The notes below the pieces were generated by a model that did not search any database, was not told the origin of the DNA, and worked only from the letters and a program-made list of their open reading frames with translations. 29,970 nucleotides of DNA, taken from contig CAKQCV010000030.1 of the NCBI GenBank assembly GCA_934217675.1, positions 1-29,970 on the forward strand, in the 5' to 3' direction. Position numbers and translations under genes: made by a program. This document shows positions 8,601 through 29,896 of this stretch, piece after piece (the first letter of the stretch is position 1; each line of letters opens with the position of its first letter). The stretch comes from an uncultured Prevotella sp. (GTDB taxonomy: Bacteria; Bacteroidota; Bacteroidia; Bacteroidales; Bacteroidaceae).

Positions 8601-9349
8601 CTATTTGATGTTGCACTTCCTCCTTCAATATTGTTACTAAGTGTAGTTATTGTATAACTATATTTAGCTGTTGCACTTGGTAATTTCTCAGAGAAACTGT
8701 CTCCCCTATAATTTTTTGCAACAATTGTTTTGTCCTTGCCGCTATTTCTGACCACATTGTATGTTATTTCATCAGGATTGACATATCCGTCATTTATGCC
8801 CTGTGAAGGAGCTACCCATGTAAGTTTTGCTGTATAGTCTTTAACTTCAAGTTTAATGTTGGAAGGTGCTGTGGCTATATCCTTTCCGATGTATACAGTT
8901 GTCGTGGTTTTGTTACTTTGTCCTGCATCGTTCGAGGCTTTGGCAAATAGAGAGTAAAGGGTATTTGAATCGAAAGTTACATTATCTTTCTTTACAACAC
9001 TTCCTGGAGTTACAGATTGTTCGTGGATTATTTCATCGCCAGAGTATATCGTTACTTTAATGTTGCCAGTAAGTTCTTTTCCATCAGCAGTTTTTGTTGG
9101 TGCTACGCATGATACTGTTCCTGTTGTTCCACCTTGTATGTTTGGAGAAAAGACCAAATCTGATATAGGTGCAGGAGCATTGTCTGCTATAGTATCTTTG
9201 TTTACGTAAAGACCGACAAACTCTTGGTGTTCTGGCATGTTGCATATTTTGTATGCTGTAGCTGTTGTTGTATTTACTTGATATAGTGCAGAACTATCAT
9301 CACTCATGAATGCCCAGTATAGTAGTCCTGTATTAGGATCAAAAGTCAT
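5672..9349 (-). CDS. FN3 / choice-of-anchor-J secreted protein, C-terminal part of a frameshifted gene
   Basis: This 1225-residue open stretch is the larger part of a gene that originally began at 10130. Its frame stays open upstream to 9541, encoding a further 64 residues that continue the beta-propeller-like sequence of the N-terminal fragment, so ATG 9349 is internal. It contains alternating fibronectin type III modules (strands ending in NITWTAP, KLTWVAP, SITWDAPEKG), three cleaved-adhesin/choice-of-anchor-J lectin-like domains (for example LPYSEDFSDG and FPVNESFENG), and a CARDB-like module (NDLAIASFNGP). The end (IYTIDGKLIGY, then GSYIINNKKITIIR) resembles a type IX secretion tail. It is probably a surface-exposed adhesin or glycan-binding protein; ligand unknown. 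Confidence 0.8.
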   Translation of the reverse strand: MTFDPNTGLLYWAFMSDDSSALYQVNTTTATAYKICNMPEHQEFVGLYVNKDTIADNAPAPISDLVFSPNIQGGTTGTVSCVAPTKTADGKELTGNIKVTIYSGDEIIHEQSVTPGSVVKKDNVTFDSNTLYSLFAKASNDAGQSNKTTTTVYIGKDIATAPSNIKLEVKDYTAKLTWVAPSQGINDGYVNPDEITYNVVRNSGKDKTIVAKNYRGDSFSEKLPSATAKYSYTITTLSNNIEGGSATSNSVLSVGSYELPYSEDFSDGETCKQLFTFVDVDNDGHDIYNKWYWKEDEKLIQYCSDGENPGNEWLFTPAIHLDGKHLYNLRFNINMGSESNLKVTLGKSPSPSDQKMILDLNNINESWETEHTATFTTTEDADYYLGFYNYSNKDCWYFNLFDINIEQGTESNIPDSIKEFKITPDTNGRNSVTLQFKAPEKLLNGEAISENINVNIYRENNLIKTYNATAGQYILFTDDNAKNGINNYKIVASYNGKMGIEVTRSVWAGYDISEPVKNMEVKTTDNNMHVSITWDAPEKGINNGFFDINKISYTIWRSLGGKNFDAIAKDVKELHYIDNTIEDLVKDGQEIYYYAVTANNAAGQSEANTQFVSVGKPYNFPVNESFENGYLQLNPWSYKSLYGELGWQTMRSDKSGGGWPQDNDEGFLKFANNWGDYYVDSRLITPVISMDGTKSPTFSFYMFHWEENSIAADNKQTKLMIEVAPDGGNFDEPIDTFTAANEKYGWIEHRVSLEKYKDCKYIQVALRGYTDNSWMYYYVDNINFDEQKANDLAIASFNGPTEANINDNCLFDITYTNRGLKKANKYKIVLKQDGKEVVSSEGDEINPGETKNITIPAKIYATKAGNESFFQAYIDYNDDEDISNNTSENIVTTVKTSTYPCAENLNVKKVGQDANITWTAPALPNTDIATVDDMEEYPSFAIEGFGEWISYDGDKLGSGKINTLPDFDNQNSNKAFQVWCPSELKGVNAETYPDLMPYSGNKCLIAWYANVSIDGANPVNDDYLISPEIKGGTDLSFFIKRINKNVSGETYQIMYSTTTQDVSAFKVLSENEAPADWEKVNIILPEDAKYFAIHYNAKLKNAIMLDDISYVPVLYALSIDGFNLFRNGKKINNETIKSTAFIDKNIESGKQGYQVSVVYNRGESNASEIVYLEETSSINDIAEIKSDNYTIYTIDGKLIGYKLKKIPHLDAGSYIINNKKITIIR

Positions 9350-9533
9350 AGATTGTGAGTAATGTGGTTTAAGCTTTGTGTTACCTATGAGAGTGGCAGT
9401 TCCATCAACTTTGCTGATTTTATAAAGGAAACCATCATCGGATATTCCATAAAGGACACCATTTGGTGAAGCTGCAAGAGTTAGATAGGAGCGTTCAAGA
9501 CTTGCTACTTTTTCAAAACTTCCATCATTTTCG

Positions 9534-10130
9534 TTAAATGTTTAAAATAAAAGGGCCACCAAAGTCTTCGCTTGTTACTGCATATATTTTACCTGTTTGT
9601 TCGTCATATGTTATGGCTGATGAGTTAGGTACATTCTGCCATTCTGTGCTTGGTTCATATACTTTTTCAATTTCCCATGTTTCAGGGTTGTATACAGTAC
9701 ATGCCACGTACATAACCCATCCCCATGACTCCTCCATATAGAATGTATAATATTTGCCATTTGCATATACTGCGGAGTTTGATTTGAAATCAGATCCAGT
9801 CTTTAATGGCGATATAGTAGTACTTGGAGTTGCATAGAAATTATATATACCATAACTACTATTATCTCCAGCCATGTTTTCTGATGATACTAGACAGCCA
9901 TATATCGTACTGTTATCTCCTACAGATTTGATAAAAAGAGGATTGTTACTTGTTTTTAACGGGAGTTGGAATTTCTTTTCACCCCAAAAATTAGAGGTAT
10001 GAGATTTTCTTACTGTTGTGATTTGCTTGCTTTGTGTTATGTTGTCATATGGTTTGGGACATTTAATTCTATTTTGTCCAAATAGAGTTGAAGACAACAA
10101 AAGCAATGCCGAAATGATTTTTGCTTTCAT
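9534..10130 (-). pseudogene. N-terminal fragment of the frameshifted FN3/choice-of-anchor-J protein
   Basis: The fragment starts at ATG 10130 with a signal peptide (MKAKIISALLLLSSTLFGQ) and runs 198 residues, ending GGPFILNI at a TAA (9534-9536). An in-frame ATG at 10193 is rejected because it lies across the promoter and adds a non-signal extension. The sequence has repeated Y-x-F/W strands (YGIYNFYAT, GKYYTFYMEESWG, TGKIYAVTSEDFG) of the kind seen in beta-propeller-like N-terminal domains of Prevotella exported proteins. The continuation (NENDGSFEKVASLERS) is found in the +1 frame. The two frames overlap only at 9534-9544, so one base gained or two lost there explains the break. Confidence 0.8.
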
Positions 10131-10161
10131 ACATTTTGTTTTTATAGGTTGTGTAATTGTA

Positions 10162-10194
10162 GCAAAAATAATAATAATATATGTATAGTCCAAA
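10162..10194 (-). promoter_or_regulatory. Bacteroidota-type promoter for the FN3/anchor-J gene
   Basis: Read on the minus strand, TTTG (10191-10194) is followed after exactly 20 bases by TATTTTTGC (10162-10170). This fits the Bacteroidota consensus TTTG-N19-21-TAnnTTTG for the -33 and -7 elements. The start codon at 10130 lies about 30 bases downstream. It implies that the anchor-J gene can be transcribed separately from the GLUG gene upstream of it. Confidence 0.7.
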
Positions 10195-11891: not shown

Positions 11892-12641
11892 TTATTTCAG
11901 TGTTATTTTCTTGGCATTTCGATATCCAGCCTTGTTGCTTGCCCATACTATAAATATGCCTTTACCTAATTCTTTTATATTGAGCGAAGCATTATATGAA
12001 TTTATCGGAATGTTCATTCTGCAATATCCATTAGCATCAAATATGTGGATATCACTTATTTCATTTTCTGCAGAAATATTCATTTTATCTCCTTCCATAC
12101 AAATATTAAAGTCTACGGCATGTTCAATACGCATCACACTTGTAGTGTTAAACTCTCCTTTTATTTCTTCTCCCATCAGTGAGCATAAATATTTTTCAAG
12201 AGCAGTATACCCTTCAGCATTAATAAGATTACCGTCATTAGCATTATTAGGGTCAAAGCCATTCTTTTTTTCCCATTCATCGGGCATTCCGTCACCGTCG
12301 GTATCCCAATTGTCTGGTCGTTTTTCTGATGGCTTAGTCGTAGAGCAATAATATGTTCCGTCTTCCGCTTTCACCATTTCTGCATCCATAGGGTTGTCAA
12401 TTATTCCGTATGTTCCCCCATCATTCCAAGAACCCCCATACGTGGCAGTGCCATTTTCTGTTTCTTTAATTATTCGTTGTTCAATACCATCTCTTACAAT
12501 ACATCCAGCCTTGTTTAGAGTTTCGTTATATCCCTCTTCTGCATTTTTCATTGTATTGAGTATAGTATATGAGTTTATGTAGAAAGTCCAATCCGAAGTA
12601 TAAAACTTTGTTGGAATGAGAATATCGTCAACAAGATGTCC
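11892..12641 (-). pseudogene. Pectate lyase C-terminal remnant downstream of the in-frame TAG
   Basis: The reading frame of the pectate lyase continues without shift after the TAG at 12642-12644, beginning GHLVDDILIPTKFYTSDW, to a TAA at 11892. The 249 residues include the end of the lyase region, a Ca-binding segment D-T-D-G-D-G-M-P-D-E-W of thrombospondin type 3/EF-hand character, and a C-terminal tail (IHIFDANGYCRMNIP, then GKGIFIVWASNKAG, AKKITLK) like type IX sorting signals. The first internal ATG is at 12551, and there is no signal peptide, so independent export is unlikely. The preserved coding character suggests the stop is recent or is an error. Confidence 0.8.
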
Positions 12642-13724
12642 CTAAGAATCTGTTGATATACCAAGTTTGTTATTTCCTGTTATATCATTTCTCTTGTTTA
12701 GTATATTCCCGGCAATATGAAAATATGAAGAACTGCTTCCTCCACCTTGAGTAAACAACATGAGCTTATTGTCTGCAACCCCTTTCTGCGTAGCTGGACC
12801 ACATTTCCAATAGTTATTAACGATATTTGCAAGATACGAGTTGTAGCGTCGGGATGTGCTTTTGTTGTCCCCACCATATATAGAATTATATCTTCCCCAA
12901 TTATATATTATGTTATTCACAAATTCATAATATGTGCAGTAGTCATAGTTTACACTTGCAGAAAAACGAGGAGAGCGAGAATTGAAATGAGCAAGGAGAT
13001 TGTTTGTAAATGTACTTGCACCCCCTCCCCAACAAACACCATATCCGCGTGAGCCTTTTTTATGTCCAGCATCATATAGTCCTTCGTGAAAAATACAGTA
13101 TTGATACGTTTGGAAGAAAGAGTTGCTGTTTGTGCATATCTCCTCACCAGACCATCCGAAAGAGCAATGGTCTATAATGATATTGTTTGTATTTTCGGTT
13201 CCGAGGGTTTGGTCTGGATTTTCGATATCAAGTAGTTTTCCGTCCCATCCATGACTACCAGTTCGTACACGGATATTACGTACAATAATATTGTCTGTCC
13301 AGTTCATAAACAATTCTCGTGGGTATAGTGTTATACCCTCTCCCGGTGCAGTTTGTCCGGCAATTGTCATTCCGCCTTTATGATTTGCCTCTAACTTATC
13401 TTTAAGAATAATCCATTCTGAAACATCGAAAACTACGGTAATGGGTTCGCCTGGATATTGTTTCACAGCCCAACGCAATGACCCTACATGAGGATTGCTT
13501 GCATCATCCTCAAGGTTCGTTACATGTACAACATGTCCACCACGTCCACCTGTAGTATATTTTCCAAATCCCATTGCTGTAGGGAATGCTGGAATATTTT
13601 GTGTGACGGTTGGATACACATATTCTCCATTTGCATCAGTTCCTTTACAATCATCTTGTGCTGATATAGTAATAGATACAGCCGTTAATGCACATGTCAA
13701 AATGAAATTATACAATCTCTTCAT
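12642..13724 (-). CDS. Pectate lyase, PL1 family, truncated by an in-frame TAG
   Basis: The product up to the TAG is 360 residues; without the stop the gene would encode about 610. A signal peptide (MKRLYNFILTCALTAVSITISAQ) is followed by a PL1 parallel beta-helix: PTAMGFGKYTTGGRGG, VFDVSEWI, MTIAGQTAPGEGI, NIIVRNIRVR, NIIIDHCSFGWSGEE and HFNSRSPRFS, the last holding the Arg expected to act as base. PL1 enzymes cut alpha-1,4 polygalacturonate by Ca-dependent beta-elimination. The truncated form keeps most of the helix but lacks the Ca-binding module and the type IX-like tail. The start lies one base beyond the esterase stop, so the two genes are one operon. Confidence 0.85.
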   Translation of the reverse strand: MKRLYNFILTCALTAVSITISAQDDCKGTDANGEYVYPTVTQNIPAFPTAMGFGKYTTGGRGGHVVHVTNLEDDASNPHVGSLRWAVKQYPGEPITVVFDVSEWIILKDKLEANHKGGMTIAGQTAPGEGITLYPRELFMNWTDNIIVRNIRVRTGSHGWDGKLLDIENPDQTLGTENTNNIIIDHCSFGWSGEEICTNSNSFFQTYQYCIFHEGLYDAGHKKGSRGYGVCWGGGASTFTNNLLAHFNSRSPRFSASVNYDYCTYYEFVNNIIYNWGRYNSIYGGDNKSTSRRYNSYLANIVNNYWKCGPATQKGVADNKLMLFTQGGGSSSSYFHIAGNILNKRNDITGNNKLGISTDS

Positions 13725-13725
13725 A

Positions 13726-15219
13726 TTATTTTCTTATAATCTTATGTATAATTGTTTTACCTTCTATTGTTTTTATTTTCAAAATGTAGCATCCCTTTGT
13801 TGCATTGTTCCATCTTAGGTGCTTTCCTTTGGTGACAGCCATTGTTTCTCCGCTCATTGAGTATAGTTTTGCATCAGCGTCTCTTTCAAAATGTATACCG
13901 TCTGCACTTACCGTAATGCTCATGTCTTTTATTTTTGTTTCGTCAATTCCCGATGTCATCATATCTGCAAAGTCACTTAAACATCCGTTTTTACTGACAG
14001 AGCGTAAAGTGTAAGTAGAATATTCTGAATAATTATTGTCTATAAAAACGCATTCAGTTGTATTGTCTATATATCTTCCATCTTTATATATAATATATCC
14101 GATAGAATGTTCAGATGCATCCCATTTAAAAGTTTCTTTATTATGATATATTGCAGATGGCTTTTCTGCAGGAATAATAAGTGGAGTAGGGTTGAATTTA
14201 CCGCCGGCACGAGCACCTTTTTCTCCAGCAAGCGTGAACAAGAAATCCATGTTGTATATGTTATCTATGACTTTGTCGTCAATATACTGAGAATTATGGG
14301 TGGATTCTTCAGTAAAAGACCATTCTATGCGCTTAGAAACGTCAATAGGATTACCATCAAGATCCATGCTTTTGTATTCTCCAATGTATTTCTTGTTCCC
14401 TTCAGACATATTTGCAAATCCGACATTATTAATATGCTTGTCTATTTTGCATCTGATGAAAATCCCCGAGCTAGTGTTCTTTCCCCACGGTCTGCCAAGA
14501 TATGATGAACCTTTGTTTACGTTGCTTTCATCACAGATGAGTTTAGAGTCTCGAATGTTTATTCCTATTCCCCATATCTTTTTTTGTCCACATAGTTCCA
14601 TAGACTTGTTTCTGTCAATAGTAACGTAACTGTCTCCAGGTGCTATGATGTATCCTGGATACAGTTGTTTTATTGTGCAATTGTCAAGAAATGCAATACC
14701 GCTATCGTAGATATAATCAACTGTGCCTTCTATATAGCAATTATAGAAATATGTTCTTGACGCATTGTCAAATCGTACACCATCTTGATTGGCTTTCATT
14801 GCCACATTTTTCAGTGTCAGTCGGTCGCCATCGTTTGTTAGGCATTCTGCCTGACCGCCATTTCTGCCAGCGGTGTTTTCTGTTGTGAAGTTTTCTCCAT
14901 ACATGTCGTATGCTTCAATGTAAAGAGTGGAAGTTTCGGATTTGTCTTTTCCACTGTTATGCGACAGGTTATGTGTTATTATCACCTTGTCTCGGTTTTC
15001 TCCCAATAACGACAGAATGACACCATTGGGGATCTTTACCTGTTCCTTGTAAGTACCATTTTTTATAAAGATGAATTTACGTATGCCATCCTTGGCACAT
15101 GCATTCACGGCATCTTGTATAGTTTTGAAGTCGCCAGTGCCATCAGCTGCAACCACCTTCATAAATGATTGTGCACTTATTGTTATTGTTGATGTTATTA
15201 AAGCAGTCAGCAAAAGCAT
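13726..15219 (-). CDS. Pectin methylesterase (pectinesterase, CE8)
   Basis: From ATG 15219 the product is 497 residues. It has CE8 landmarks: GTYKEQV near the start, Q123 in GGQAEC, Gln145-Asp146 in ANQDGV, Asp168 in GTVDYIYD, and Arg243 in LGRPWG. These match the family's catalytic Asp pair, oxyanion Gln and Arg. The enzyme removes methyl esters from homogalacturonan and so prepares it for the lyase encoded next. An FN3-like module and a tail (AKLYSMSGETM, then KGCYILKIKTIEGK) follow. The signal peptide from 15219 (MLLLTALITSTITISAQ) lacks the usual basic N-terminus. An ATG at 15237-15239 would supply MEKIKK if the 7-A run held one more A, so the true start is uncertain. Confidence 0.85.
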   Translation of the reverse strand: MLLLTALITSTITISAQSFMKVVAADGTGDFKTIQDAVNACAKDGIRKFIFIKNGTYKEQVKIPNGVILSLLGENRDKVIITHNLSHNSGKDKSETSTLYIEAYDMYGENFTTENTAGRNGGQAECLTNDGDRLTLKNVAMKANQDGVRFDNASRTYFYNCYIEGTVDYIYDSGIAFLDNCTIKQLYPGYIIAPGDSYVTIDRNKSMELCGQKKIWGIGINIRDSKLICDESNVNKGSSYLGRPWGKNTSSGIFIRCKIDKHINNVGFANMSEGNKKYIGEYKSMDLDGNPIDVSKRIEWSFTEESTHNSQYIDDKVIDNIYNMDFLFTLAGEKGARAGGKFNPTPLIIPAEKPSAIYHNKETFKWDASEHSIGYIIYKDGRYIDNTTECVFIDNNYSEYSTYTLRSVSKNGCLSDFADMMTSGIDETKIKDMSITVSADGIHFERDADAKLYSMSGETMAVTKGKHLRWNNATKGCYILKIKTIEGKTIIHKIIRK

Positions 15220-15494
15220 AGTTTTTTTATCTTTTCCATCTCGTTTAATTTTATTATTTATGGTGTAGTCTGATACATGTGTGTAGACTTGGAAAGTAGT
15301 CAAAATCAAAAGGCAAACTCATTCTCCCGAACGAGTCTTACCTTTCTATAATCCTAAATACAACTATCAAACACTTATAAACGGCATCGTTTACATTTTT
15401 ACATATAGATGCCCAATTCACAAAATCTAATAATAACTCTATTAAAACTAACTAACATGTAAATATTGTCTCCTTCCATTTTGTTTTTTATTGA

Positions 15495-15540
15495 GAGCAT
15501 GCCACAAAGACTTTTTATTGTATTCTTTGTGGTCATGCTC
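15495..15540. repeat. Long stem-loop between susD and the esterase gene
   Basis: GAGCATG plus CCACAAAGA (15495-15510) pairs with TCTTTGTGG plus CATGCTC (15524-15540), with one bulged base (15533) and a 13-base loop. It lies 14 bases after the SusD stop. On the minus strand the following bases are A-rich, so it is not a standard terminator in that direction. It may stabilise the susCD mRNA end or partly stop transcription before the enzyme genes. The rest of 15240-15553 contains no gene and only weak short repeats. Confidence 0.6.
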
Positions 15541-15553
15541 TATTTTATAAGTT

Positions 15554-17530
15554 TTAATATCCGTTAGTACCAAATTCATCAGCATTAGCAATCTGATCAA
15601 GGAACTCCTGAGGTATAGGTCTTACAAGATGCTTAGATTTGTCGAAAGTAGTGATAAATGGGTTCTTTCCCTTTTCTGACAGATATTCTGCATTAAGTCT
15701 TCCGGTGCGTTTCAGGTCATACCAACGCCATTGTTCTCCGCAAAGTTCCCTTGCACGTTCCTTCAATATATAGTCCATATTCATATTGTCGATGCTAACT
15801 TCCATCTCTGCGGCATCTCCAGCAACAGCAGCATGACGGCGTACAGCATTCAGATATTCCAGTCCGTCGGCAGGTGTACCTCTGCCGATAGCAGCTTCAG
15901 CAGCAATAAGATATATGTCAGTGAGACGAATTACAGGGATATCCATCATGTCATACTGGTTGGTATAGGCATACTTAAAGCTACGGAATTTCTTTAACGA
16001 AGGTTGCACTCCACGATAGTAGCTGTAAGAAGCTTGCTGTCCGAATTTTTCAGCAGTCATGTCATATTGTTCATCTATTCCAACACAAAGTCGCTTGTTG
16101 TATTTTGTTTCAATAGTGTCAAGCTCCCAGTTTGGAACATAGCATGCAAGTGCATCGTCCACTCCTTCATCTTCAAGCTTCTGTCCGGCAAGAGTTCCTG
16201 TAGCGTAGAAATTTGCTCCAGGATATTTTGTATTATATTCTGTGCCTTCTATTCCGCTACCTTTAATAGTGCGTTTTGATGAACCGTAAAGTCCGGCACG
16301 CCCATTCTCCGGATTTGTCATCAATGTGTCCTTCTTGTATTGTGCCATAAGTTTACGCGATACGATAGTCTTTCCGTAGGCATAATATTTATAGTAGAAG
16401 GCATCTTGGAATCTGGTGTCGGCAGTGCGGTCATTTTTGTCTTTAGCTAAGTTTATAAGTTCTGTATTTGTTTCAGATTTTGGAAGCTTAGGTTCAAAAC
16501 AATCATGTAGCAGATAATAAGTAGGACTCCATGTAGTAGCATTGTCACGCCCATATCTTACACCAGAACTTTGCACTCCGAAGTTTTGCGCCTGTGTCAT
16601 CTTCATCATATAATACTGCGCTGTTCTTCCTCTGTTCCACCCCTCAGGGTTATAGGCATTAACATGGTCAACTGCTTCAACAAACAAGAACTCCTTGTTG
16701 TCTTTATTGTTTGCATCATCCCATGCTTGAGCATTTCCACTCTTTGTAGCCGTGCTTTGATAAAGTCCGCAACCGTATGAGTTTGCATTGTCAATAAGCT
16801 CTTTTGCCGTTCTGAATGCCGAATCTGCATTTGCAATATATTTCTCAGACCCTTCGGCGTAAAGACGTGTGCGCTGCATATAAGCTTTTGCAAGCATTGC
16901 AAGTGCCGCTTTCTTTGTAGCACGTCCACGTTCAGCCTGAGTCACTGGGAGATTATCTTTTGCAAATTTGAGGTCGCTAATGATAAGATCATAGAAATCT
17001 TCTTCCGAAGAGCGCACGGCTTTTTCTGCAGCAATTCCGTTAGTAGCAAACGATTCTTTGTTTAGCACAACATTTCCCCATTGTTCCACAATATGGAAGT
17101 TGGCAAAACCGCGCATAAAATATGCTTCTGCAGCAATAGGCTTGATTTCTTCTTGTGTAAATTTTCCGTGGTTTTGATAATATATAGCAGTGTTGCAATA
17201 GCCCACGATACAGTATAATGCATTCCAAATAGTGCGCACTACACCAGTGCTTGGCGTTAGGTTCTCATTATAGTTTGTAAGTTCTCCGCTTCCAGCCGTA
17301 CGGCTTCCAACCTTCCATAAGTCAGTACCCATTTCCATTGGTCCAATGCCGTCAGACTTGCCATACATATAGTAAATGTTTTCATAACAAGCATTGATGA
17401 GCGACTGATAGCCATTCTTTGTGCTATATGCTATATTCGTGTCGAGCGAAGAATAGTTATTCTCGTCAAGTGAGCACGATGCAAGTCCGGCAATAGTAGC
17501 CAAAGCTATTATATATTTTGCTTTTTTCAT
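15554..17530 (-). CDS. SusD/RagB-family glycan-binding lipoprotein
   Basis: The 658-residue product has a lipoprotein signal (MKKAKYIIALATIAGLASC) with the lipidated Cys at residue 19. SusD-type features follow: alpha-helical TPR-like segments, AEAYFMRGFANFHIVEQWGNVVL, KKAALAMLAKAYMQRTRL, and a C-terminal block IPVIRLTDIYLIAAEAA, YLNAVRRHAAVAG, ERARELCGEQWRWYDLKRTGRL and LVRPIPQEFLDQI. SusD proteins sit on the cell surface as lids over the SusC barrel and bind the oligosaccharide. The start is 23 bases after the susC stop, the usual tight pair. Neighbouring enzymes point to oligogalacturonide or another pectic fragment as ligand. The gene is intact. Confidence 0.95.
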   Translation of the reverse strand: MKKAKYIIALATIAGLASCSLDENNYSSLDTNIAYSTKNGYQSLINACYENIYYMYGKSDGIGPMEMGTDLWKVGSRTAGSGELTNYNENLTPSTGVVRTIWNALYCIVGYCNTAIYYQNHGKFTQEEIKPIAAEAYFMRGFANFHIVEQWGNVVLNKESFATNGIAAEKAVRSSEEDFYDLIISDLKFAKDNLPVTQAERGRATKKAALAMLAKAYMQRTRLYAEGSEKYIANADSAFRTAKELIDNANSYGCGLYQSTATKSGNAQAWDDANNKDNKEFLFVEAVDHVNAYNPEGWNRGRTAQYYMMKMTQAQNFGVQSSGVRYGRDNATTWSPTYYLLHDCFEPKLPKSETNTELINLAKDKNDRTADTRFQDAFYYKYYAYGKTIVSRKLMAQYKKDTLMTNPENGRAGLYGSSKRTIKGSGIEGTEYNTKYPGANFYATGTLAGQKLEDEGVDDALACYVPNWELDTIETKYNKRLCVGIDEQYDMTAEKFGQQASYSYYRGVQPSLKKFRSFKYAYTNQYDMMDIPVIRLTDIYLIAAEAAIGRGTPADGLEYLNAVRRHAAVAGDAAEMEVSIDNMNMDYILKERARELCGEQWRWYDLKRTGRLNAEYLSEKGKNPFITTFDKSKHLVRPIPQEFLDQIANADEFGTNGY

Positions 17531-17553
17531 TGTTTTTGTCTCCTTAAATTACA

Positions 17554-20500
17554 TTAGAAAGATGCATTTATACCAAATACTATTGTTTTGTATAGTGGGA
17601 ATCTGTCAGAAGCATTGTTCTCAGGATCCATACCCTTGAGCATGTCGCTCTTGCGCCAAATGAACGGATTGGTTATTGTTCCGTAAACACGCAGACGACT
17701 CATGCCTATTTTCTTCAAAACCTTTCGTGGTACAGTATATCCCAATGTTATATTCTTTATCTTGATGAACGAACCATCTACATATAGTAAAGACTCTTTC
17801 TGTTCGTTAGACATGCTGTGACCTTGATGTGGTCGTGGGAAAGCATTTGTTGGATTTGTCGGTGTCCAATAATCGTAGCATGTTGGCTGATTGGTATTGC
17901 TCACGTATCCAAGCAATGCACCGTTAACCATTTGTCCCCATCTCATTGTTGCCATGATAGTGATGTCAAAGTCGTAGATTTGGAATTGGTTTTGGAAACC
18001 AAGATTCCACTTAGGAGTCTTAGACCCAAGAATCTGGCGGTCGTTAGATGATGTAGAATAAGTTCTGTTCCTTGTATAATACTTATGCGTAGTGTTTCCA
18101 TTCGCATCAGTTTGGTCTTCCGAAGGTTTATAGTAAGCACCTTTATGCTCAACTTGCTGTTCAATAGTGTTGCCGTCAGCATCGGTAGTAGTGGTGGTTG
18201 TTGTATATGTGTAGTTAGGGTCATACACCAATCCTGGGATATCCAGTCTTACATCTCCAGGTTCTGCACCGAAGCAAGCTGCTTGTTCCTCTTGTCCGAG
18301 TTGCCATATTCCTGCTTTCTTGTATCCATAGAATGTGTTGACAGGATTGTCAAGGAATAGGTTGAGAGCAATAAGATCGCTTACAGATACATTGTTTCCA
18401 AGATTTATCTCCTTCAGCTTTTCACTATTTCTTGCAAAAGTAAATGTTGAGTTCCAACGGAAATTCTTTGTTTCTATGTTGCGCGAGTTGACGGTTATTT
18501 CCACACCCTTGTTCTGAATCCTTGCAATGTTAGACATCTTATAGTAAGGTGCCTTTGCATTGAATCCACCAAGAGATGTTGGCAATGGTCGGTTATACAG
18601 CACGCCCTTGGTATCAGTAGAATAAAGTTCAATAGATCCGTCGATTCTGTTTTTCAGCACGGCAAAGTCCAATCCCAAGTTCCAGTTGTATGATTTTTCC
18701 CAAGTCAAGTCATGGTTTGCTACATTTCGTGCAAGTATGTAACTCTGGATTTGTCCTTGTCCGAGGTTTAGCATATTAGACGAGTTTGTAACAGATGTCA
18801 ACGACACATACGGACTAATGTTTGCATTTCCAGAAACACCATATCCGACACGCAACTTTAGGTTATCAAGCCAACTCTTGGTAGCAGCCATAAACTTCTC
18901 ATCGCTGATTCTCCATCCGGCAGAAACAGCAGGGAAAGAACTCCACTTGTTGTATAGCTGTGATGCACCATCCCAACGGATAGATGCCGACAAGAGGTAT
19001 CTGCCGAGATAGTTGTAGTTCACACGTCCGGCATACGACATTTTTGCCGTTTCCTTGTAGTAAGAGCTTGTATAAGGCTTTATACCTGCAGACATGTTGT
19101 ACCATAGGAAATCGTCATACTCAAATTGTTCGTTTTGAGCCGAAGAACCTTCATTGCGATTGTTGGTATATTCAACAATTCCAGTCAGCGTGACGTCATG
19201 GTCTTTTTTAATTTTGAAGTTGTATGTAGCAACGTTCTGCCACTGATAGCTGTAGCCGAATGCCGAGTTGTAAGTAGCTGTGCGCTTGTTATCTTGCGAG
19301 CCAGATAGCTTCATATAAGTGTCAAGACCATCCCAAATACCACCTCTTGAGTTAGAAAGTGTGGCGTTGAAAAGCGATTTGAAGTTCAATCCCTTCAATG
19401 GATGAATCTCAACAAAAGGAGCAATGTTTATAGATGTTGCTTTTGTATTGTTTTGGTATGCCGTCTTGCTGTCATCTGCCAAGATGTTGATATAGTTCGG
19501 CATATCGCTGATAGGATATTTGTTCAGAGTGCCGTCCTCGGCATACACCTCACCAAGAGGTATTTGGTTGAGGGTCTTGCTCAGGCGCGAATTGCGACTG
19601 TCTTTGTTGCGGTAAGAAAGGTTTGATTGGAAACCAACTTTTATGATATTGTTTAGCTTGTATGTGGAACCGGCACGGAAAGTGATTTGGTCAAGTTTGT
19701 CGTTCTTGTAAAGACCCTTTTCCTGTTGGTATCCCACGCTCATGTAGCCTTGTTGGCGATCAGTTCCTCCACGAACAGACAGGTTATAGTTTTGCTGCAC
19801 ACCAGTGTGAAGCATCTCGTCTTTCCAGTTCACCCATTTGTTATTGTTGTATGCCTCAATAGCTCCCTCACTGAGTCCTACAGAGTTGAACAGTTCGTTG
19901 ATATCGGCAGGTTCACTGTTGTAGCGTGCGCGATATCCTTCTTTCATGAAGTTTATCCATCCTTCGCCAGTGTAAGTTGACGGATATTGTGGAAAGGCAT
20001 TGATACCGACATACGCATTGAAGTCAATCTGTACTTTACCTTTCACTCCCTGTTTCGTTGTTACAATGATAACACCATTGGCTCCGGCAGAACCATAGAT
20101 GGCTGTAGACGAGGCATCTTTAAGCACCTCGATGCTTTCGATGTCGTTAGGATTTATATTGTCAATACTTCCGCCAGACACTCCGTCGATTACATACAGT
20201 GGCGAGCAGTCAGCATTAAGCGAGCGGTTACCACGAAGCAGAATCTGTGGGGATGAACCTGCCTGACCCGACTCTCTGGTAATGTCAAGACCAGAAATCT
20301 TTCCTGACAGACCTTCCATGGCATTCACAACAGGAGCCTGTTTGATGTCTTCGGATTTTACAGAAGAGATTGCTCCCGTGAGGTCACGGCGTTTCACTGT
20401 TCCGTATCCTACTACAACCACCTCGTCCATAACTTTTGCGTCAGGATCGAGCGAAATCTTTACTTGGCGTTTCCCAACAATGCTTACAGTCTTAGTGTTG

Positions 20501-20778
20501 TATCCAATATATGATACAATGATATTTTTCACGTTCTGACCTATGCTAAGCGAGAAATTTCCATCAAGGTCGGTTACGGTAGCTGCTTGTGTACCCTTTG
20601 CCTTGACTGTTACTCCAATCATAGGATCGCCGTTTTCGTCAACCACTTGTCCTGTTATTTTCTGCGACTGGTTGATGCTTTGTACCAAGAGAGATGTTTC
20701 GGCGTTTGCCATAAGTGGCATTCCACACATCATTGCTCCTGATAATGCAATTACTGTTGTTAGTTGCTTTTTATTCAT
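17554..20778 (-). CDS. SusC/RagA-family TonB-linked outer-membrane transporter
   Basis: The 1074-residue protein starts with a signal peptide ending ANA-E (about residue 26). A CarboxypepD_reg-like module (about 40-115; GQVVDENGDPMIGVTVKAKG) comes next, then a TonB box with DEVVVVGYGT, the plug domain (LTGAISSVKSEDI, ILLRGNRSLNADCSPLYVIDGV, SIEVLKDASSTAIYGSAGANGVI) and a long beta-barrel ending FGINASF with a terminal aromatic residue. SusC transporters import oligosaccharides with TonB/ExbBD energy. The substrate is inferred from the CE8 and PL1 genes in the same run. There is no stop, frameshift or missing motif. A leader of about 160 bases with two hairpins precedes it. Confidence 0.95.
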   Translation of the reverse strand: MNKKQLTTVIALSGAMMCGMPLMANAETSLLVQSINQSQKITGQVVDENGDPMIGVTVKAKGTQAATVTDLDGNFSLSIGQNVKNIIVSYIGYNTKTVSIVGKRQVKISLDPDAKVMDEVVVVGYGTVKRRDLTGAISSVKSEDIKQAPVVNAMEGLSGKISGLDITRESGQAGSSPQILLRGNRSLNADCSPLYVIDGVSGGSIDNINPNDIESIEVLKDASSTAIYGSAGANGVIIVTTKQGVKGKVQIDFNAYVGINAFPQYPSTYTGEGWINFMKEGYRARYNSEPADINELFNSVGLSEGAIEAYNNNKWVNWKDEMLHTGVQQNYNLSVRGGTDRQQGYMSVGYQQEKGLYKNDKLDQITFRAGSTYKLNNIIKVGFQSNLSYRNKDSRNSRLSKTLNQIPLGEVYAEDGTLNKYPISDMPNYINILADDSKTAYQNNTKATSINIAPFVEIHPLKGLNFKSLFNATLSNSRGGIWDGLDTYMKLSGSQDNKRTATYNSAFGYSYQWQNVATYNFKIKKDHDVTLTGIVEYTNNRNEGSSAQNEQFEYDDFLWYNMSAGIKPYTSSYYKETAKMSYAGRVNYNYLGRYLLSASIRWDGASQLYNKWSSFPAVSAGWRISDEKFMAATKSWLDNLKLRVGYGVSGNANISPYVSLTSVTNSSNMLNLGQGQIQSYILARNVANHDLTWEKSYNWNLGLDFAVLKNRIDGSIELYSTDTKGVLYNRPLPTSLGGFNAKAPYYKMSNIARIQNKGVEITVNSRNIETKNFRWNSTFTFARNSEKLKEINLGNNVSVSDLIALNLFLDNPVNTFYGYKKAGIWQLGQEEQAACFGAEPGDVRLDIPGLVYDPNYTYTTTTTTTDADGNTIEQQVEHKGAYYKPSEDQTDANGNTTHKYYTRNRTYSTSSNDRQILGSKTPKWNLGFQNQFQIYDFDITIMATMRWGQMVNGALLGYVSNTNQPTCYDYWTPTNPTNAFPRPHQGHSMSNEQKESLLYVDGSFIKIKNITLGYTVPRKVLKKIGMSRLRVYGTITNPFIWRKSDMLKGMDPENNASDRFPLYKTIVFGINASF

Positions 20779-21326: not shown

Positions 21327-24300
21327 CTATTTTTTGCCGTTCTCCCTGTATTCAGAAGGGGTCATTCCTGTTTCTTTCTTGAATACTCTGCTAAAGTAGC
21401 GTTGGTCGTTAAAGCCAACAGCAGCAGAAATCTCGGATATGGTGAGCTTGCTACTTGTTATCATCTCGCATGCACGCTTTATGCGCAAATCGCGCAGGAA
21501 ATCTATAGGAGACATTCCAACGATGCTTTTCACCTTATTGAAGAACACTGTGCGCCCGAGGTTTACGGCAGATGCCATGTCTTCGATACGCAAGTTGCAG
21601 TCGCTGATATGGTTTTCAAGAAAATCCATAAGGCGAGACATCATCTCACGGTCGTAGTCAACGATTTTAATGCTGCTCAATCTGTATTCGCCATTTGGAG
21701 ACTTCTGTATCTCTTCAGCACTTGTTTGCTGTTCAACATGCCGATGAGCAATAATCTCAGCCATTCGTTGTTTTAGATAGCGTGCGCTGAAAGGTTTTGT
21801 GATATAGTCGTCAATGCCTTGTTCTATACCCAAGACTTTATCTTCTATTGAGGCACGTGCCGACAATATAACTATTGGTATATGGCAGATGTTTGGATTC
21901 TTTTTGATGAGACTTACCATTGTCAGTCCGTCCATGATAGGCATTGTTACATCGCTAAGGATAAAATCTGGTTGCTCATTTGTAGCCATATCAAATCCTT
22001 CCTTGCCATTAGACGCTGTAAGTACGGTATATGTCGGTGAAAGGAGAGACACAAGAAATTTGCGCAGGTCACAATTATCTTCAACCACTAAGATGCGTGT
22101 GTCTGTGCTGTTTGCGTCGTATTGTTCCTCTTTATTCTCGTTAGCAAAGACTGGAGCGTTTTTGTCGTCTACAAAAAAGCATCCCTCCATGTTGTCGTTT
22201 AGCATGCTGTCAACAATTTTCAGCATGCTGCGTGAACTGTTGCGTGCGGTTTCAAGATATTCTCGCTCACTGTCAGAGATGTTTCTGCTTTTTAATACTT
22301 CAACGATAGGTCCTCCGATTAGTGTGAGTGGAGTGCGCAGTTTGTGGCTTGCCTCGCGATAGAACAGAGTCTTGCGCTCGCTTATTATCTTTTCGATTGC
22401 AGCTTTGTGACGAATATTATAGTATTTGTAAATGAAATACAGGAAAACACATATCATTATGAAATATATTGCTTTTGCCAACCATGTATCCCACCAGGCT
22501 GGAGTGGCATAAATGGTTATTGAAGCAATATTGTTTGTCCATTGTCCGTCGGCATTGGTGCTTCTGACAAGCAGCTTGTATTTTCCTGCAGGTAGGTCGT
22601 TGAACGACACGCTATGGTTATAACCGATGTTGTTCCATTGCTTGTCTATGCCCTCAAGTTTATATGCATATTTGATAAATTGCTGTTCGGAATAGTCGAG
22701 GGCAGCAAAACTCACAGTAAAGCTATGCTTGTTTGACGGCAATTCTATCATGTCTCTGTATAACACAGGAGTTGATTTCTTGTTACCGTTAATTAATGTG
22801 CTCATGAATACAATCTTGGGCATAACACTTGTTGCAGTGAGCTTGTCGGGGTTGAATGTTATATAACCGTCTTGTGCTCCAACAATAGCATAACCTGTTG
22901 ATTCTATCAGTTGCGGTTGCGCTTCAGTAAAGTCGCTGTAGTTTGATACCTTGCCAGGCCAGAAAGTAAGATTCTTTCCTGTTTGCGGGTTATATTTGTC
23001 TATATTGTTTTCACGCACCACCCATAGATTTCCGGCTTTATCCTCAAACATTCCGTTTATTGGTCCGTCGCTTACAGACTCGTGTGTTATATACTTGGCT
23101 TTGGGGGCAGACAACAATGTCTTATTGTCTATCTCGAAAATTTCGCCAGATATGGTAGCCATGAAGATCTTGCCACTTTTCATCACTATAGTCTGTATTA
23201 CATCCGGAAAGTCTTTATCTTTCTTGTTGCTCGTATTTTGCAAGTAGTGATAAACGATATCTCGCGGAGATTTGAAACTATCGCTGAAAGTTATTACTCC
23301 ATGTGTGGTAGAAGCAATTATTGCTCCAGAATGTGTCGTGGATAAGCGGCGTATGGCGTAATCTTCGGCTATAGGTTCTTTTCCGAGAATATTGTTGGAA
23401 TTTATGAACCGTATACCTCCGTCTCTCTCGTCAACAAGGTTAATGCCTCCTCCGTATGTGCCAATCCAAATTCTGCCTTTCTTGTCTTGTAGGAAAGCAT
23501 TTGCTCTGTTGTGTGACAGCGAGAATTTGTTATTCTTGTCATTGCGATAGTTCTTAACGCTGCCGTCACCTTTAAGTAAGTACACACCATTGTCCTTTGT
23601 TCCAATCCAGATTCTTCCTTTGCTGTCTTCAAACAATGAATAGATGTTTGGAGAAAAAACTACAGGTGAAGATGTTATCTTCCCTAATGCTGTAACATAT
23701 CCTTTCAGATTGTTTTTATAGTCATACACCATCAGATTGCCTAATTCATTACCAGTCCAAATGTTCTTGTTGTGGTCTACAAGGACTGAACGCACATTTC
23801 CGAACATTCTTCCGTTTATTTTCTTAAAATTCTGTTTGCCGAAGCTTATACAGTTGAACGAGTGCAGTCCTGTGAACCATAGATTCTTTTGATTGTCAAT
23901 GAAAATGCGATCCATGGTAGGAATGGCATATTGCTTGTTTTCCTGTTCATACAGAGCGTATGGGTGCAGAGTGCGTGTTGTCTCGTCATAATAGCAGAAT
24001 GTGCCTCCACGTGGGATAGCCCATACGGTGCCGTTTTTGTCTTGCAGCCAAACGGTGAATTTACATGTTGTCTGTTTCATGATGTCTGTAGCCTTTGCGG
24101 TTAGCCAGGTTTTATCCTTTAAGTTCGACTGAATTAAAGTCAGTCCGTCGCTATCAGTAAAAGCCCATAGGCGGTGTTTGGAGTCAACGAAAAGGTTGGT
24201 TACGTGGTTTGATGGAGAAGAAGGACTTTGCAGATTTATTATTTTCGAACAGAGAGTGCGCATGTTTATTATTGCCACACCAATATTTGTACCACATGCA

Positions 24301-25106
24301 ATATGGTCTTTATCAATGCTAACCATATTGTTTACCTCTTCCACACCTGATGGCATAGAAAATTTATTTGTTCTTTTTGTTGTTGGGTTATACACAGTTA
24401 TTGTGTTCCCCTTTCCGCCCCAAACTATGCTGTTGTTGTATTTTATAAGAGTCAATACCGGCTTCTTGTATATCTGTCCTCTGTTTGGAGTGTATACACC
24501 AATCTTTCCGTATATGATTTCATCACCGTTATTGCATATAATAGCACGGTATGTAGCATCTGTAAGAGGTTTTTTGCTTACTATATCAATGCCCTTGCCG
24601 TCAAGAATTGTATTGTCGTTGATTCTTACAAGTCCAGGTGATGTTCCACGCATGCCGATAAGCCATGTGTTGCCATTTTTGAGAGGCATGATGTCAAGTA
24701 CTTTCATGTTGATACCTTTTTCTTGCATTATCCTTGACAAATTGTGGAAACTGTTCTTCCTGCAGTTATAAAGATATAGACTTCTGTTGTTGTCGGTAAG
24801 GTATATTCCTCCGTTGTGGTTAGGGCGTGCGGAGAGGTATCGTTGTGTTGTAATGGTGTGGAAGTCTCCATAATCACGGTATGGAGTGAAGTCATATCCG
24901 TCGAACGACCATAATCCGTTAACAGACGAGAACCACATCAGTCCGTTGTCATCTTGGTCGAAGTGGGTAATATGATTGGTCGTAAGTCCTTGTGATATTG
25001 AAAATGTCTTGATTCGGCAGTATGGTTGTGCATAAACATAGCTGTTTACCAATATCAATATGAATGTTAGTAGTATAATGTTTATAGTCTTGTAAATATT
25101 AGTCAT
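21327..25106 (-). CDS. Hybrid two-component (HTCS) regulator lacking the HATPase_c domain
   Basis: The 1259-residue protein has a signal peptide (cleavage near A26-Q27), a periplasmic sensor of Reg_prop propeller repeats (GLMWFSSVNGLWSFDGYDF, GRIWIGTKDNGVYLL, GRIWIGTYGGGINL), a Y_Y_Y domain (about 796-856) and one membrane helix (about 875-895). Next come HisKA (ASHKLRTPLTL, His921), a receiver (about 1003-1118; LVVEDN, phospho-acceptor Asp1052, TKPF) and an AraC-type HTH (about 1165-1255). Normally a HATPase_c domain of about 110 residues lies between HisKA and receiver. Here only 82 residues separate His921 from the receiver and no N, G1 or G2 box is visible. The residue after His921 is Lys, not Glu. 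It probably senses a pectin product and controls susCD expression. Confidence 0.92.
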   Translation of the reverse strand: MTNIYKTINIILLTFILILVNSYVYAQPYCRIKTFSISQGLTTNHITHFDQDDNGLMWFSSVNGLWSFDGYDFTPYRDYGDFHTITTQRYLSARPNHNGGIYLTDNNRSLYLYNCRKNSFHNLSRIMQEKGINMKVLDIMPLKNGNTWLIGMRGTSPGLVRINDNTILDGKGIDIVSKKPLTDATYRAIICNNGDEIIYGKIGVYTPNRGQIYKKPVLTLIKYNNSIVWGGKGNTITVYNPTTKRTNKFSMPSGVEEVNNMVSIDKDHIACGTNIGVAIINMRTLCSKIINLQSPSSPSNHVTNLFVDSKHRLWAFTDSDGLTLIQSNLKDKTWLTAKATDIMKQTTCKFTVWLQDKNGTVWAIPRGGTFCYYDETTRTLHPYALYEQENKQYAIPTMDRIFIDNQKNLWFTGLHSFNCISFGKQNFKKINGRMFGNVRSVLVDHNKNIWTGNELGNLMVYDYKNNLKGYVTALGKITSSPVVFSPNIYSLFEDSKGRIWIGTKDNGVYLLKGDGSVKNYRNDKNNKFSLSHNRANAFLQDKKGRIWIGTYGGGINLVDERDGGIRFINSNNILGKEPIAEDYAIRRLSTTHSGAIIASTTHGVITFSDSFKSPRDIVYHYLQNTSNKKDKDFPDVIQTIVMKSGKIFMATISGEIFEIDNKTLLSAPKAKYITHESVSDGPINGMFEDKAGNLWVVRENNIDKYNPQTGKNLTFWPGKVSNYSDFTEAQPQLIESTGYAIVGAQDGYITFNPDKLTATSVMPKIVFMSTLINGNKKSTPVLYRDMIELPSNKHSFTVSFAALDYSEQQFIKYAYKLEGIDKQWNNIGYNHSVSFNDLPAGKYKLLVRSTNADGQWTNNIASITIYATPAWWDTWLAKAIYFIMICVFLYFIYKYYNIRHKAAIEKIISERKTLFYREASHKLRTPLTLIGGPIVEVLKSRNISDSEREYLETARNSSRSMLKIVDSMLNDNMEGCFFVDDKNAPVFANENKEEQYDANSTDTRILVVEDNCDLRKFLVSLLSPTYTVLTASNGKEGFDMATNEQPDFILSDVTMPIMDGLTMVSLIKKNPNICHIPIVILSARASIEDKVLGIEQGIDDYITKPFSARYLKQRMAEIIAHRHVEQQTSAEEIQKSPNGEYRLSSIKIVDYDREMMSRLMDFLENHISDCNLRIEDMASAVNLGRTVFFNKVKSIVGMSPIDFLRDLRIKRACEMITSSKLTISEISAAVGFNDQRYFSRVFKKETGMTPSEYRENGKK

Positions 25107-27421: not shown

Positions 27422-29143
27422 TTACCTTACCAATATAGTTTTTACTGTTCCGTTGCTTGTCTTGACTATATTTATTCCACGTGTAGGTTTAGATACTTTT
27501 GTTCCGTTCACATTATAGTATTCTGTAGTAAGAGCTGAGCTAATACCATTTATTGAAGACGTTGGCGATGCGGTTGCTGTATTTGAAAAGTCAGATTCTC
27601 CTTCTTCGTATACAGCAGTTACATTGTAACCGTTTCTTTCATTATTGCTTGTAGTCATGTCGGTGTAAGAGTTACTTGTAACAATTTCTGCATTAACTTT
27701 CTCTCCATTCCTGTAGATATTGTATCCAATCAATGTGCGACCAGGCTTGTCACCATTGTATGGTCGGTATGTTATATCATCGAGCATGCAATACAAGAAG
27801 CATCTAACCACACGGATAGCAAAATATCTTGCACCTTCAGGAAGTTCGTAGGAATGAGCATCTTTGTTCCACCAATCCCATACAGCAATATGATCATTGT
27901 CTCCAAGTTGCTTAAAGCTGTCAGGATGTTTGTCGGTCGTAGAATAGTATACTTTAAGCCAATCGGCACCTGATGCTGAGTTTGGAGTCCGTGCATAGAA
28001 TGAAATTGTTTGTGGCTGCCCGTCAAGACGTGGAGAGATGAGCCAATCATTGTTCTTTTGATAATAGTCATCATTAGATGGGCACATCAGATATTGTTTG
28101 CCAGAATGAGAGAGGAAAACATTGTCATAGTGGTTTTCTGTAACGACTCCAGCTTTTTCGGTATTGAATACTTGCCATGCCATTGCTTCCCCCTTGTGTG
28201 GATAGTTCGTTGGAATAACAGGTGAGTTTAATGTCTTGCCACCGTCAAGGTCAAGTACTGTCCATTCTCCTATATTGTCGATTATGAATGGTTCGTAACT
28301 TTCAAAATCATCAAGAATTGGCTCTGCTGCTTCTGTTATGACAGGAGCCCATGATGTGCATTCGTTCCAGGAAAGTTTTACGGTGCTCCCGGAAAGGGTT
28401 GCAGAAAGGTTCTCTGGGACAGGAACATCATTTTGACGTACTGTCCACCAAATGCTGTCTGAGATGTTGTTCTCTTTTATCTCATCTTTAGCATATTCTA
28501 TCTCTACCTTCCATGTGCTGCTGTCGCGGCGTGCATCTTGAAGATCTGATTTATATCCGAAGGTGAAATCCTTTGTTTCCGTTGAAAGTATTGGCTTGCC
28601 TTTTATACGTTGGTTCTCTATTCCATCACGGTATAGAATAATGGCGTAGTCTTGTACAGTGTTGGCACCATGGTTATAGATGGTGGTGTTGAATGTTGTA
28701 GTCTCTCCAATATTCACCCTTCTTTCACTGGCAGAAAAAGAACGAACAGCAAGGTCGTTAGTAAATCCTGCTTCGTTGATAGCTACACTGTCTATAAAGA
28801 AGTTATGATGTGTGCCCCAATCGTTGTTTAATTCGGCAAGGAATGAGAAACATACATTTGATCCTTCGTATTTGTGCAAAGGTATGTGACAACGTGTCCA
28901 TCCGGATGTGTTGGCATAAGGGCTGAACGATGCATCGTTTATGTCTTCCCAAATACCTCCATCTATTGATATTTCTACTTTTAGTGTGTCATGTGGATTA
29001 CCGAATTCATCAACATCCTCGTTTCGCCTTTTGAATAGATAAAAGGATAATTCGGGATTTGTCATGTTGCTTAAATCAAAAATAGGAGTCATTATTCTTG
29101 ATTTTTCGCCATTGAATGCATATTCTGCCTTTGCAACAAGCAT
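27422..29143 (-). CDS. FN3 / choice-of-anchor-J secreted protein, C-terminal part downstream of a nonsense codon
   Basis: From the first internal ATG (29143) this is 573 residues, but the same frame is open up to a TAA at 29453-29455 with no shift, adding 103 residues (starting NVYHDGETLVQSS). It contains an anchor-J-like domain (ESFANGG just upstream, then MTPIFDLSNMTNPELSFYLF), a CARDB-like module (NDLAVRSFSASERRVNIGET), an FN3 strand (VKLSWNECT), a second anchor-J domain (NDWLISPRLDGQPQTISFY) and a tail (TTEYYNVNGTKVSKPTRGIN, ending TILVR) like type IX signals. It is a paralogue of the protein encoded at 5672-10130. Surface binding is inferred; ligand unknown. Confidence 0.8.
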   Translation of the reverse strand: MLVAKAEYAFNGEKSRIMTPIFDLSNMTNPELSFYLFKRRNEDVDEFGNPHDTLKVEISIDGGIWEDINDASFSPYANTSGWTRCHIPLHKYEGSNVCFSFLAELNNDWGTHHNFFIDSVAINEAGFTNDLAVRSFSASERRVNIGETTTFNTTIYNHGANTVQDYAIILYRDGIENQRIKGKPILSTETKDFTFGYKSDLQDARRDSSTWKVEIEYAKDEIKENNISDSIWWTVRQNDVPVPENLSATLSGSTVKLSWNECTSWAPVITEAAEPILDDFESYEPFIIDNIGEWTVLDLDGGKTLNSPVIPTNYPHKGEAMAWQVFNTEKAGVVTENHYDNVFLSHSGKQYLMCPSNDDYYQKNNDWLISPRLDGQPQTISFYARTPNSASGADWLKVYYSTTDKHPDSFKQLGDNDHIAVWDWWNKDAHSYELPEGARYFAIRVVRCFLYCMLDDITYRPYNGDKPGRTLIGYNIYRNGEKVNAEIVTSNSYTDMTTSNNERNGYNVTAVYEEGESDFSNTATASPTSSINGISSALTTEYYNVNGTKVSKPTRGINIVKTSNGTVKTILVR

Positions 29144-29452: not shown

Positions 29453-29896
29453 TTATTTTACATCATCAGTTGCATAATAGCCACCATTTACAGAAGAAGC
29501 TGGAGCTACCCATGACAATGTTATGCTTAAATCTTTATTGCGCTTGGCTGTGAGCTCTCTAACTGCTGTTGGTACATCCAAACCGATGTATGCTTTCTGA
29601 CTTTCAACTTCGCTGTTTCCATGTGCATTTGTACAATACACATTATATGTATTATATCCTTGATTTGCTTCGTTGTCAGTATAGGTTATTTCAGAGCCTG
29701 GCTCTGGGGCTTCAATTGTTTTAATCCGTTTATCCCCTCTTGATATTGTTATTGAAGACAGATTCTCTAATTTAGTTCCATCTGCATTTGTTGCAGGGGC
29801 TGTCATACAAAGCGTAGCTGATAATTTCCCTTCCTGGGCTGGAGTTACTCTTAACCCTGTTACTTTACCGGGGACTGAACCAAGGGATATTTCGGG
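29453..29896 (-). pseudogene. Upstream fragment of the second FN3/anchor-J gene, itself broken at its 5' end
   Basis: The frame is open from 29896 down to a TAA at 29453 (codons ...DDVK-stop). It encodes PEISLGSVPGKVTGLRVTP and two FN3-like modules, including LSWVAPASSVNGGY. Tyr is the likely lost residue at the stop (DDVK-Y-NVYHDGE), one base from TAA. Upstream, this frame meets a TGA at 29897-29899. A different frame, open from 29958 to 29863, encodes a signal-peptide-like RTIRSFIVFSLPHAFAGD, so a second lesion probably lies at about 29863-29896. No ATG start for that frame is visible, and the window ends at 29970. Confidence 0.7.

Follow-up and report, generated by a model that had tools for sequence, protein, structure and literature searches.

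A conserved class of hybrid two-component systems that lacks the kinase ATPase domain

How can a sensor control its regulator when the domain that would supply the phosphate is absent from the chain? The question is raised by P0001, a gene in a stretch of 29,970 nucleotides (the window) from an uncultured Prevotella sp. (contig CAKQCV010000030.1). A sequence-only reading of the window had described P0001 as a hybrid two-component system (HTCS) without a kinase ATPase domain, and had left the choice between an unusual class of regulators and a switch frozen by a recent in-frame deletion. The description was borne out, and a diverse family around P0001, together with a second family with a different sensor, supports the former option. 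There is a conserved class of HTCS without the catalytic and ATP-binding (CA) domain and without the acidic residue that follows the phospho-accepting histidine (position +1).

An HTCS relative without HATPase_c

P0001 is an open frame of 1259 amino acids (25106..21327, ATG to TAG) on the minus strand, where all its features lie; the plus strand over 21327-25106 contains many stop codons. A Pfam scan (E ≤ 1) matched the Reg_prop propeller repeats of a periplasmic sensor (8.9e-27, approximately residues 27-800, 22707..25028), a Y_Y_Y domain (3e-15, residues 805-865, 22512..22694), HisKA (8.4e-8, residues 912-970, 22197..22373), Response_reg (4.3e-23, residues 1005-1114, 21765..22094) and the AraC-type helix-turn-helix (HTH) HTH_18 (1e-21, residues 1177-1255, 21342..21578). 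Sensor, receiver and HTH thus stand on one chain, with a HisKA domain that has its phospho-accepting histidine, as expected of an HTCS. The solved HTCS sensor chains 4a2l, 3v9f and 3ott match portions of the sensor and the Y_Y_Y region. A probable transmembrane helix (around residues 879-897, 22416..22472) was read from the sequence by eye and is helical in the AlphaFold2 model.

The same scan found no HATPase_c in P0001, even at E ≤ 1, including residues 920-1003, the region singled out beforehand as the place to look for one. With the same library, four long HTCS (L085, L092, L030, L081) gave HATPase_c E-values of 9.3e-25 to 3e-31, and direct scans of five further kinase-less proteins (L087, L090, L102, L099, L022) gave none at E ≤ 0.1. 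His921 (22344..22346) is separated from the receiver by 82-83 residues, in agreement with the 82 counted earlier, and the site of HATPase_c in canonical HTCS is taken by a short linker (residues 971-1003, 22098..22196, from Pfam and the model). For want of HATPase_c, P0001 is a relative of HTCS and not a canonical one.

Structure prediction gave a concordant picture. The AlphaFold2 model of residues 881-1259, built with 26 relatives (mean predicted local distance difference test, pLDDT, 80.7; predicted template modelling score, pTM, 0.44), has two long helices in the HisKA region, a linker with pLDDT <50 (model residues 91-120), and then the receiver and DNA-binding domains; it contains no CA-like order of elements. 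Given the pTM, we did not interpret domain placement. A fold search returned receivers and response regulators, and was uninformative for the dimerisation and histidine phosphotransfer (DHp) domain to which HisKA corresponds. Linker residues 977-987 (22146-22178) read FFVDDKNAPVF, and similar stretches recur in many homologue rows.

A search for homologues of P0001 returned 1231 proteins ordered by whole-length similarity; the figures given here rest on the best 120, P0001 included, so that full HTCS may sit among the other 1111. The 119 homologues are 35-69% identical to P0001, and the 120 proteins form 109, 40 and 13 greedy clusters at 90%, 60% and 50% identity. None of the 120 has PF02518 (HATPase_c) in the precomputed Pfam annotation, and their histidine-receiver spacing is 82-129 residues. 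The lysine that had been noticed after the phospho-acceptor, Lys922 (22341..22343), is typical of the group: position +1 is K in 104, R in eight, N in six and Q in two, and never acidic. The histidine and the following H-box positions +2 to +9 (L R T P L T L I), which include Thr925 at +4 (22332..22334), the phosphatase position of HisKA proteins, are invariant (120/120), as are the receiver residues E1009, D1010, D1052 (21951-21953), S1082 and K1104. Some proteins of the class (P0075 in this group, P0131 in the L087 group described below) are named "hybrid sensor histidine kinase" in the database while most rows are nameless, so regulatory predictions may rely on a kinase that is absent.

An earlier genome scan using P0001 alone detected no relative. 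We then used two receiver-derived patterns that are blind to position +1, which matched at least 589 stretches. Of these, 566 encode relatives, from which we analysed the 80 most similar. The short form was present at 32 of these loci, always with a non-acidic residue at +1, in records named Prevotella, Segatella (S. baroniae B14, S. copri), Hallella, Xylanibacter, Bacteroides, Muribaculaceae and Bacteroidaceae. The 80 loci also encoded 35 proteins with long spacing (291-346 residues), all with E at +1, and the remaining loci fell outside both pattern-defined classes. Among 301 genomes drawn evenly from the family to which S. baroniae B14 belongs, ten matched H-[KNQH]-[LF]RTP[LF]T; read individually, they were nine intact short HTCS and a broken one (L100). 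A looser pattern matched five of 393 genomes drawn from the order: two with a short HTCS of the P0001 type (G001, G043), one with two short HTCS (G632; L106 and L109), one with a long HTCS as an exception (G404; L107) and one with a protein that is not an HTCS (G311; L108). The class is sparse per genome, yet spread across several lineages.

Repeated origin and the pattern of constraint

Among the pattern matches were short-spacing proteins of only 727-760 amino acids, which we call clade 2, the P0001 group being clade 1. Scans of three of them (L087, L090, L102) matched a Peripla_BP_4 sensor along with HisKA, receiver and HTH domains, but not HATPase_c. With L087 as query, at least 7962 homologues were retrieved; the best 120 of 7962 are 89-95% identical to L087, none has PF02518, and Q at +1 and T at +4 are invariant among them. 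The nearest long relatives of clade 2 in our trees are four HTCS with periplasmic-binding-protein sensors (L085 and L092 by Pfam, with Peripla_BP_4 as in clade 2; L091 and L094 by spacing) and the same cytoplasmic order, presumably of the BT1754-like type. Unlike clade 2, L085 and L092 retain HATPase_c, and E or D stands at +1 in all four. The Hallella mizrahii genome G002 (that of L012) holds both types: of its three kinase-less HTCS (L086, L087, L090), one belongs to clade 1 and the other two to clade 2.

We built a first tree from 98 HTCS cores (94 different rows) from which the CA part had been removed. Position +1 is acidic in 0 of the 51 short proteins (K 33, Q 13, R 4, N 1) and in all 47 long ones (E 46, D 1), and T at +4 was retained in every short sequence counted. 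The short proteins require two changes in this tree, forced by starred branches. A second tree of 95 rows (the first set plus two clade-2 rows and L107, minus six near-copies) requires three changes, of which two are forced; placing all short rows in a single clade costs 131.8 log units (approximately unbiased test, p-AU 1.6e-5). The tree groups were defined by architecture and long branches are present. Both short clades are nested among long HTCS, as expected from common descent with canonical HTCS, and the trees indicate that the kinase-less form arose at least twice. Since the root is the midpoint, we infer the direction of change, loss and not gain: one loss probably took place in the Reg_prop/Y_Y_Y lineage of P0001 and another in the lineage with Peripla_BP_4 sensors. 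A third origin (L109) is possible, with weak support (92/37 and 88/29). These cytoplasmic-core trees reject the idea that the form arose once and later exchanged its sensor.

To see where constraint was kept, we compared column entropies between 47 clade-1 rows and 23 near long HTCS. The means were alike in the receiver (0.95 vs 0.95 bits, short vs long) and the HTH (1.11 vs 1.18), and far higher in the short rows where DHp helix 2 ends (1.59 vs 0.36) and over the linker (2.57 vs 0.87). The most divergent columns were +1 (922), 968 and 972. DHp-receiver contact positions hardly vary. Constraint has been lost on the CA side. These results leave a negligible probability for a recent in-frame deletion, or an assembly gap, in P0001 alone. 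Three interrupted frames nearby in the window would suit such an event, but the identical gap is common to the 119 homologues and to the 32 public-genome loci, and the receiver and HTH around it are under no less constraint than in full HTCS, which refutes a frozen switch of recent date.

What the remaining domains may do

Passages in PMC3510030 report that HisKA proteins need the +1 acid for kinase activity only (CrdS E372A, D, Q and G are all kinase-dead) and the Thr/Asn at +4 for phosphatase activity only, and that the isolated DHp domains of EnvZ and NtrB suffice for phosphatase activity, which the CA domain boosts greatly. The short HTCS have lost the kinase set (CA domain, +1 acid) and kept the phosphatase Thr at +4, along with the His, the receiver site and the inhibitory lock described below. 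In the residue lost and the residue kept they resemble the CrdS E372 mutants and the isolated DHp domains, the Q of clade 2 being equivalent to CrdS E372Q; the forms in that source are laboratory constructs with the receiver on a separate protein, whereas the short HTCS are a natural family. P0001 is probably incapable of phosphorylating itself.

In HTCS, according to passages in PMC11253607, a contact between receiver and DNA-binding domain (REC-DBD; S/CHIP-DK) blocks DNA binding without phosphorylation, and the receivers can be phosphorylated in vitro by phosphoramidate, a small donor. P0001 retains this lock: C1074, H1075, I1076 and P1077 (21876..21887), with D1152 (21651-21653) and K1191 (21534-21536) as presumed partners, equated with D1344 and K1383 of BT4124 by constant offset and conservation. 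In clade 1, E1009, D1010, D1052, S1082, K1104, H1075, I1076, P1077 and K1191 are present in 47 of 47 rows and D1152 in 45; in the four clade-2 rows, residues 1009 and 1082 are D and T, and the others are unchanged. The solved chain 12aw, a receiver-HTH fragment, looks by eye like a long HTCS at the few class-marking columns compared. Receiver site and lock were kept while the ATP route is gone, so the phosphorylated state still seems to matter.

The sequence-only reading had suggested that such a regulator might work by conformation. The sensor would then twist the DHp coil and directly free or clamp the receiver-AraC unit, phosphorylation being unimportant. We consider this unlikely. It agrees with a chain that has no kinase, that physically joins sensor and regulator, and that retains the REC-DBD lock, but a mere lever would have no use for the His, the Thr at +4 and the receiver catalytic residues found in 120 of 120 proteins, and conformation alone leaves them unexplained.

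We give an about even chance to a different reading, in which P0001 is a kinase-dead HTCS and its DHp works on the receiver of the same chain, most probably as a signal-gated phosphatase. The receiver would be phosphorylated from outside, by acetyl phosphate or another kinase, and its phosphorylation would free the AraC domain from the CHIP-DK lock to drive transcription of the neighbouring SusCD and pectin genes. The sensor would steer the dimeric DHp via the membrane helix, a glycan signal raising or lowering its phosphatase activity, and the DHp would strip the phosphoryl group from the fused receiver, Thr925 positioning the water and His921 assisting. A narrower scenario, in which the kinase was discarded at least twice, the signal controls phosphate removal only and the drive comes from the acetyl phosphate pool, is possible though doubtful.

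Several observations weigh against the signal-gated phosphatase. Basic residues at +1 are found in other kinase families, e.g., HisKA_2. The full-length HTCS L107 (1-2988, plus strand, genome G404) has CA motifs visible by eye and Q at +1, so that the +1 change and CA loss are not strictly tied. Entropy in the short proteins is higher in the H-box (0.63 vs 0.37 bits) and in the coil that precedes it (2.05 vs 0.95), which this reading leaves unaccounted for. The kept H-box residues are also kept in full HTCS and thus cannot separate phosphatase from phosphotransfer. The phosphate donor is a guess, passages in PMC3510030 describe DHp without CA as a much weaker phosphatase, and among the listed titles and abstract openings of open-licence papers we found no description of a kinase-less HTCS class. 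L107 itself may be a kinase-dead full-length HTCS.

The invariant His and receiver Asp would suit phosphotransfer. Spo0B, ChpT and RcsD are DHp-like, lack a working CA domain and have a phosphotransfer role, although they are not fused to receiver or AraC domains. Here, the DHp would act as a histidine phosphotransfer (HPt) or Spo0B-type domain, relaying phosphate between another HTCS or kinase and the receiver of its own chain, in either direction. Possible donors coexist in six of eight short-form genomes (G001-G008), where the H-box pattern also matches with an acidic +1, E or D (three in G001, two each in G002, G003, G005 and G006, one in G007); G004 and G008 show the short one only, with a pattern that is exact and misses variants and in genomes that are perhaps incomplete. 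No partner gene adjoins P0001, and we regard phosphotransfer as quite unlikely.

Less probable still is a kinase in trans, the other mechanism offered by the sequence-only reading, in which the CA domain of another HTCS phosphorylates His921 in a heterodimer. Split kinases exist, and passages in PMC3591291 propose HATPase-less HisKA proteins as candidates. Nevertheless, the +1 acid needed for autokinase activity is absent from both clades, and the end of DHp helix 2, which leads to the CA domain, has lost constraint. A CA profile built from 47 long HTCS, which gave 50 matches in control loci that include the training proteins, had none (E ≤ 0.01) in the window or in 42 short loci, which total 765 kb and overlap in part, distant partners being outside the scope of this search.

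According to the same passages, HATPase-less HisKA proteins had been counted earlier (1556 of 42417 in SMART), and in the split kinases CheA3 and CheA4 the ATPase is likewise apart from the phospho-accepting His, with CheA3 having phosphatase activity as well (PMC3591291). CheA3/CheA4 have a known dedicated partner and none is seen for the short HTCS. That count used the motif HE/DxxN/T, while the short HTCS have lost the acid and carry a fused receiver and DNA-binding domain. They resemble canonical Bacteroidetes HTCS (BT4124, BT3334 and BT4663, as described in passages of PMC11253607) in having a Reg_prop/Y_Y_Y sensor, DHp, receiver and AraC HTH on one chain, and also in the CHIP-DK lock and SusCD neighbours; they differ in that HATPase_c is gone, the +1 acid is replaced by K, R, Q or N, and the CA linker has degenerated. 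The passages on XynR or HTCS in PMC11107044, PMC8002723 and PMC10766802 make no mention of a missing ATPase domain. Hence, the phenomenon was known for HisKA proteins, and the HTCS class, the paired residue loss and the repeated origin look new.

If the signal-gated phosphatase is the right reading, these proteins would be a natural, repeated counterpart of the kinase-dead, phosphatase-competent mutants used on two-component switches, and would allow a direct test of whether a transcription factor can be run by signal-gated dephosphorylation alone. The two clades, with their matched losses, constitute a replicated natural experiment. If acetyl phosphate is indeed the drive, a fibre-degradation locus would fire only with the glycan present and the right carbon flow.

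The surrounding locus

Downstream of P0001 and on the same strand, adjacent genes of a polysaccharide utilization locus (13726..20778) encode, by Pfam, SusC (17554-20778), SusD (15554-17530) and a pectinesterase (13726-15309). Their position makes them likely targets of P0001. The next gene (11892-13724, minus) was read by eye as pectate-lyase-like and has no Pfam match. Because of these four genes, pectin is the likely signal.

The pectate-lyase-like gene is split by one in-frame TAG at 12642-12644, its halves sharing a frame. At 9300-9620 (minus), open reading frames 9534-10193 and 5672-9349 look like one protein with a frame change near 9530, and an in-frame TAA at 29453-29455 (minus) breaks the frame upstream of the open reading frame 27422-29143. 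The three interrupted frames may reflect decay of the locus or errors in the sequence.

A single substrate for the whole class is unsupported, because neighbours vary among loci: scans of the short-class neighbours found pectinesterase, GH88, GH3, GH97, UxaC, CotH, a sugar transporter and a sub-threshold pectate lyase.

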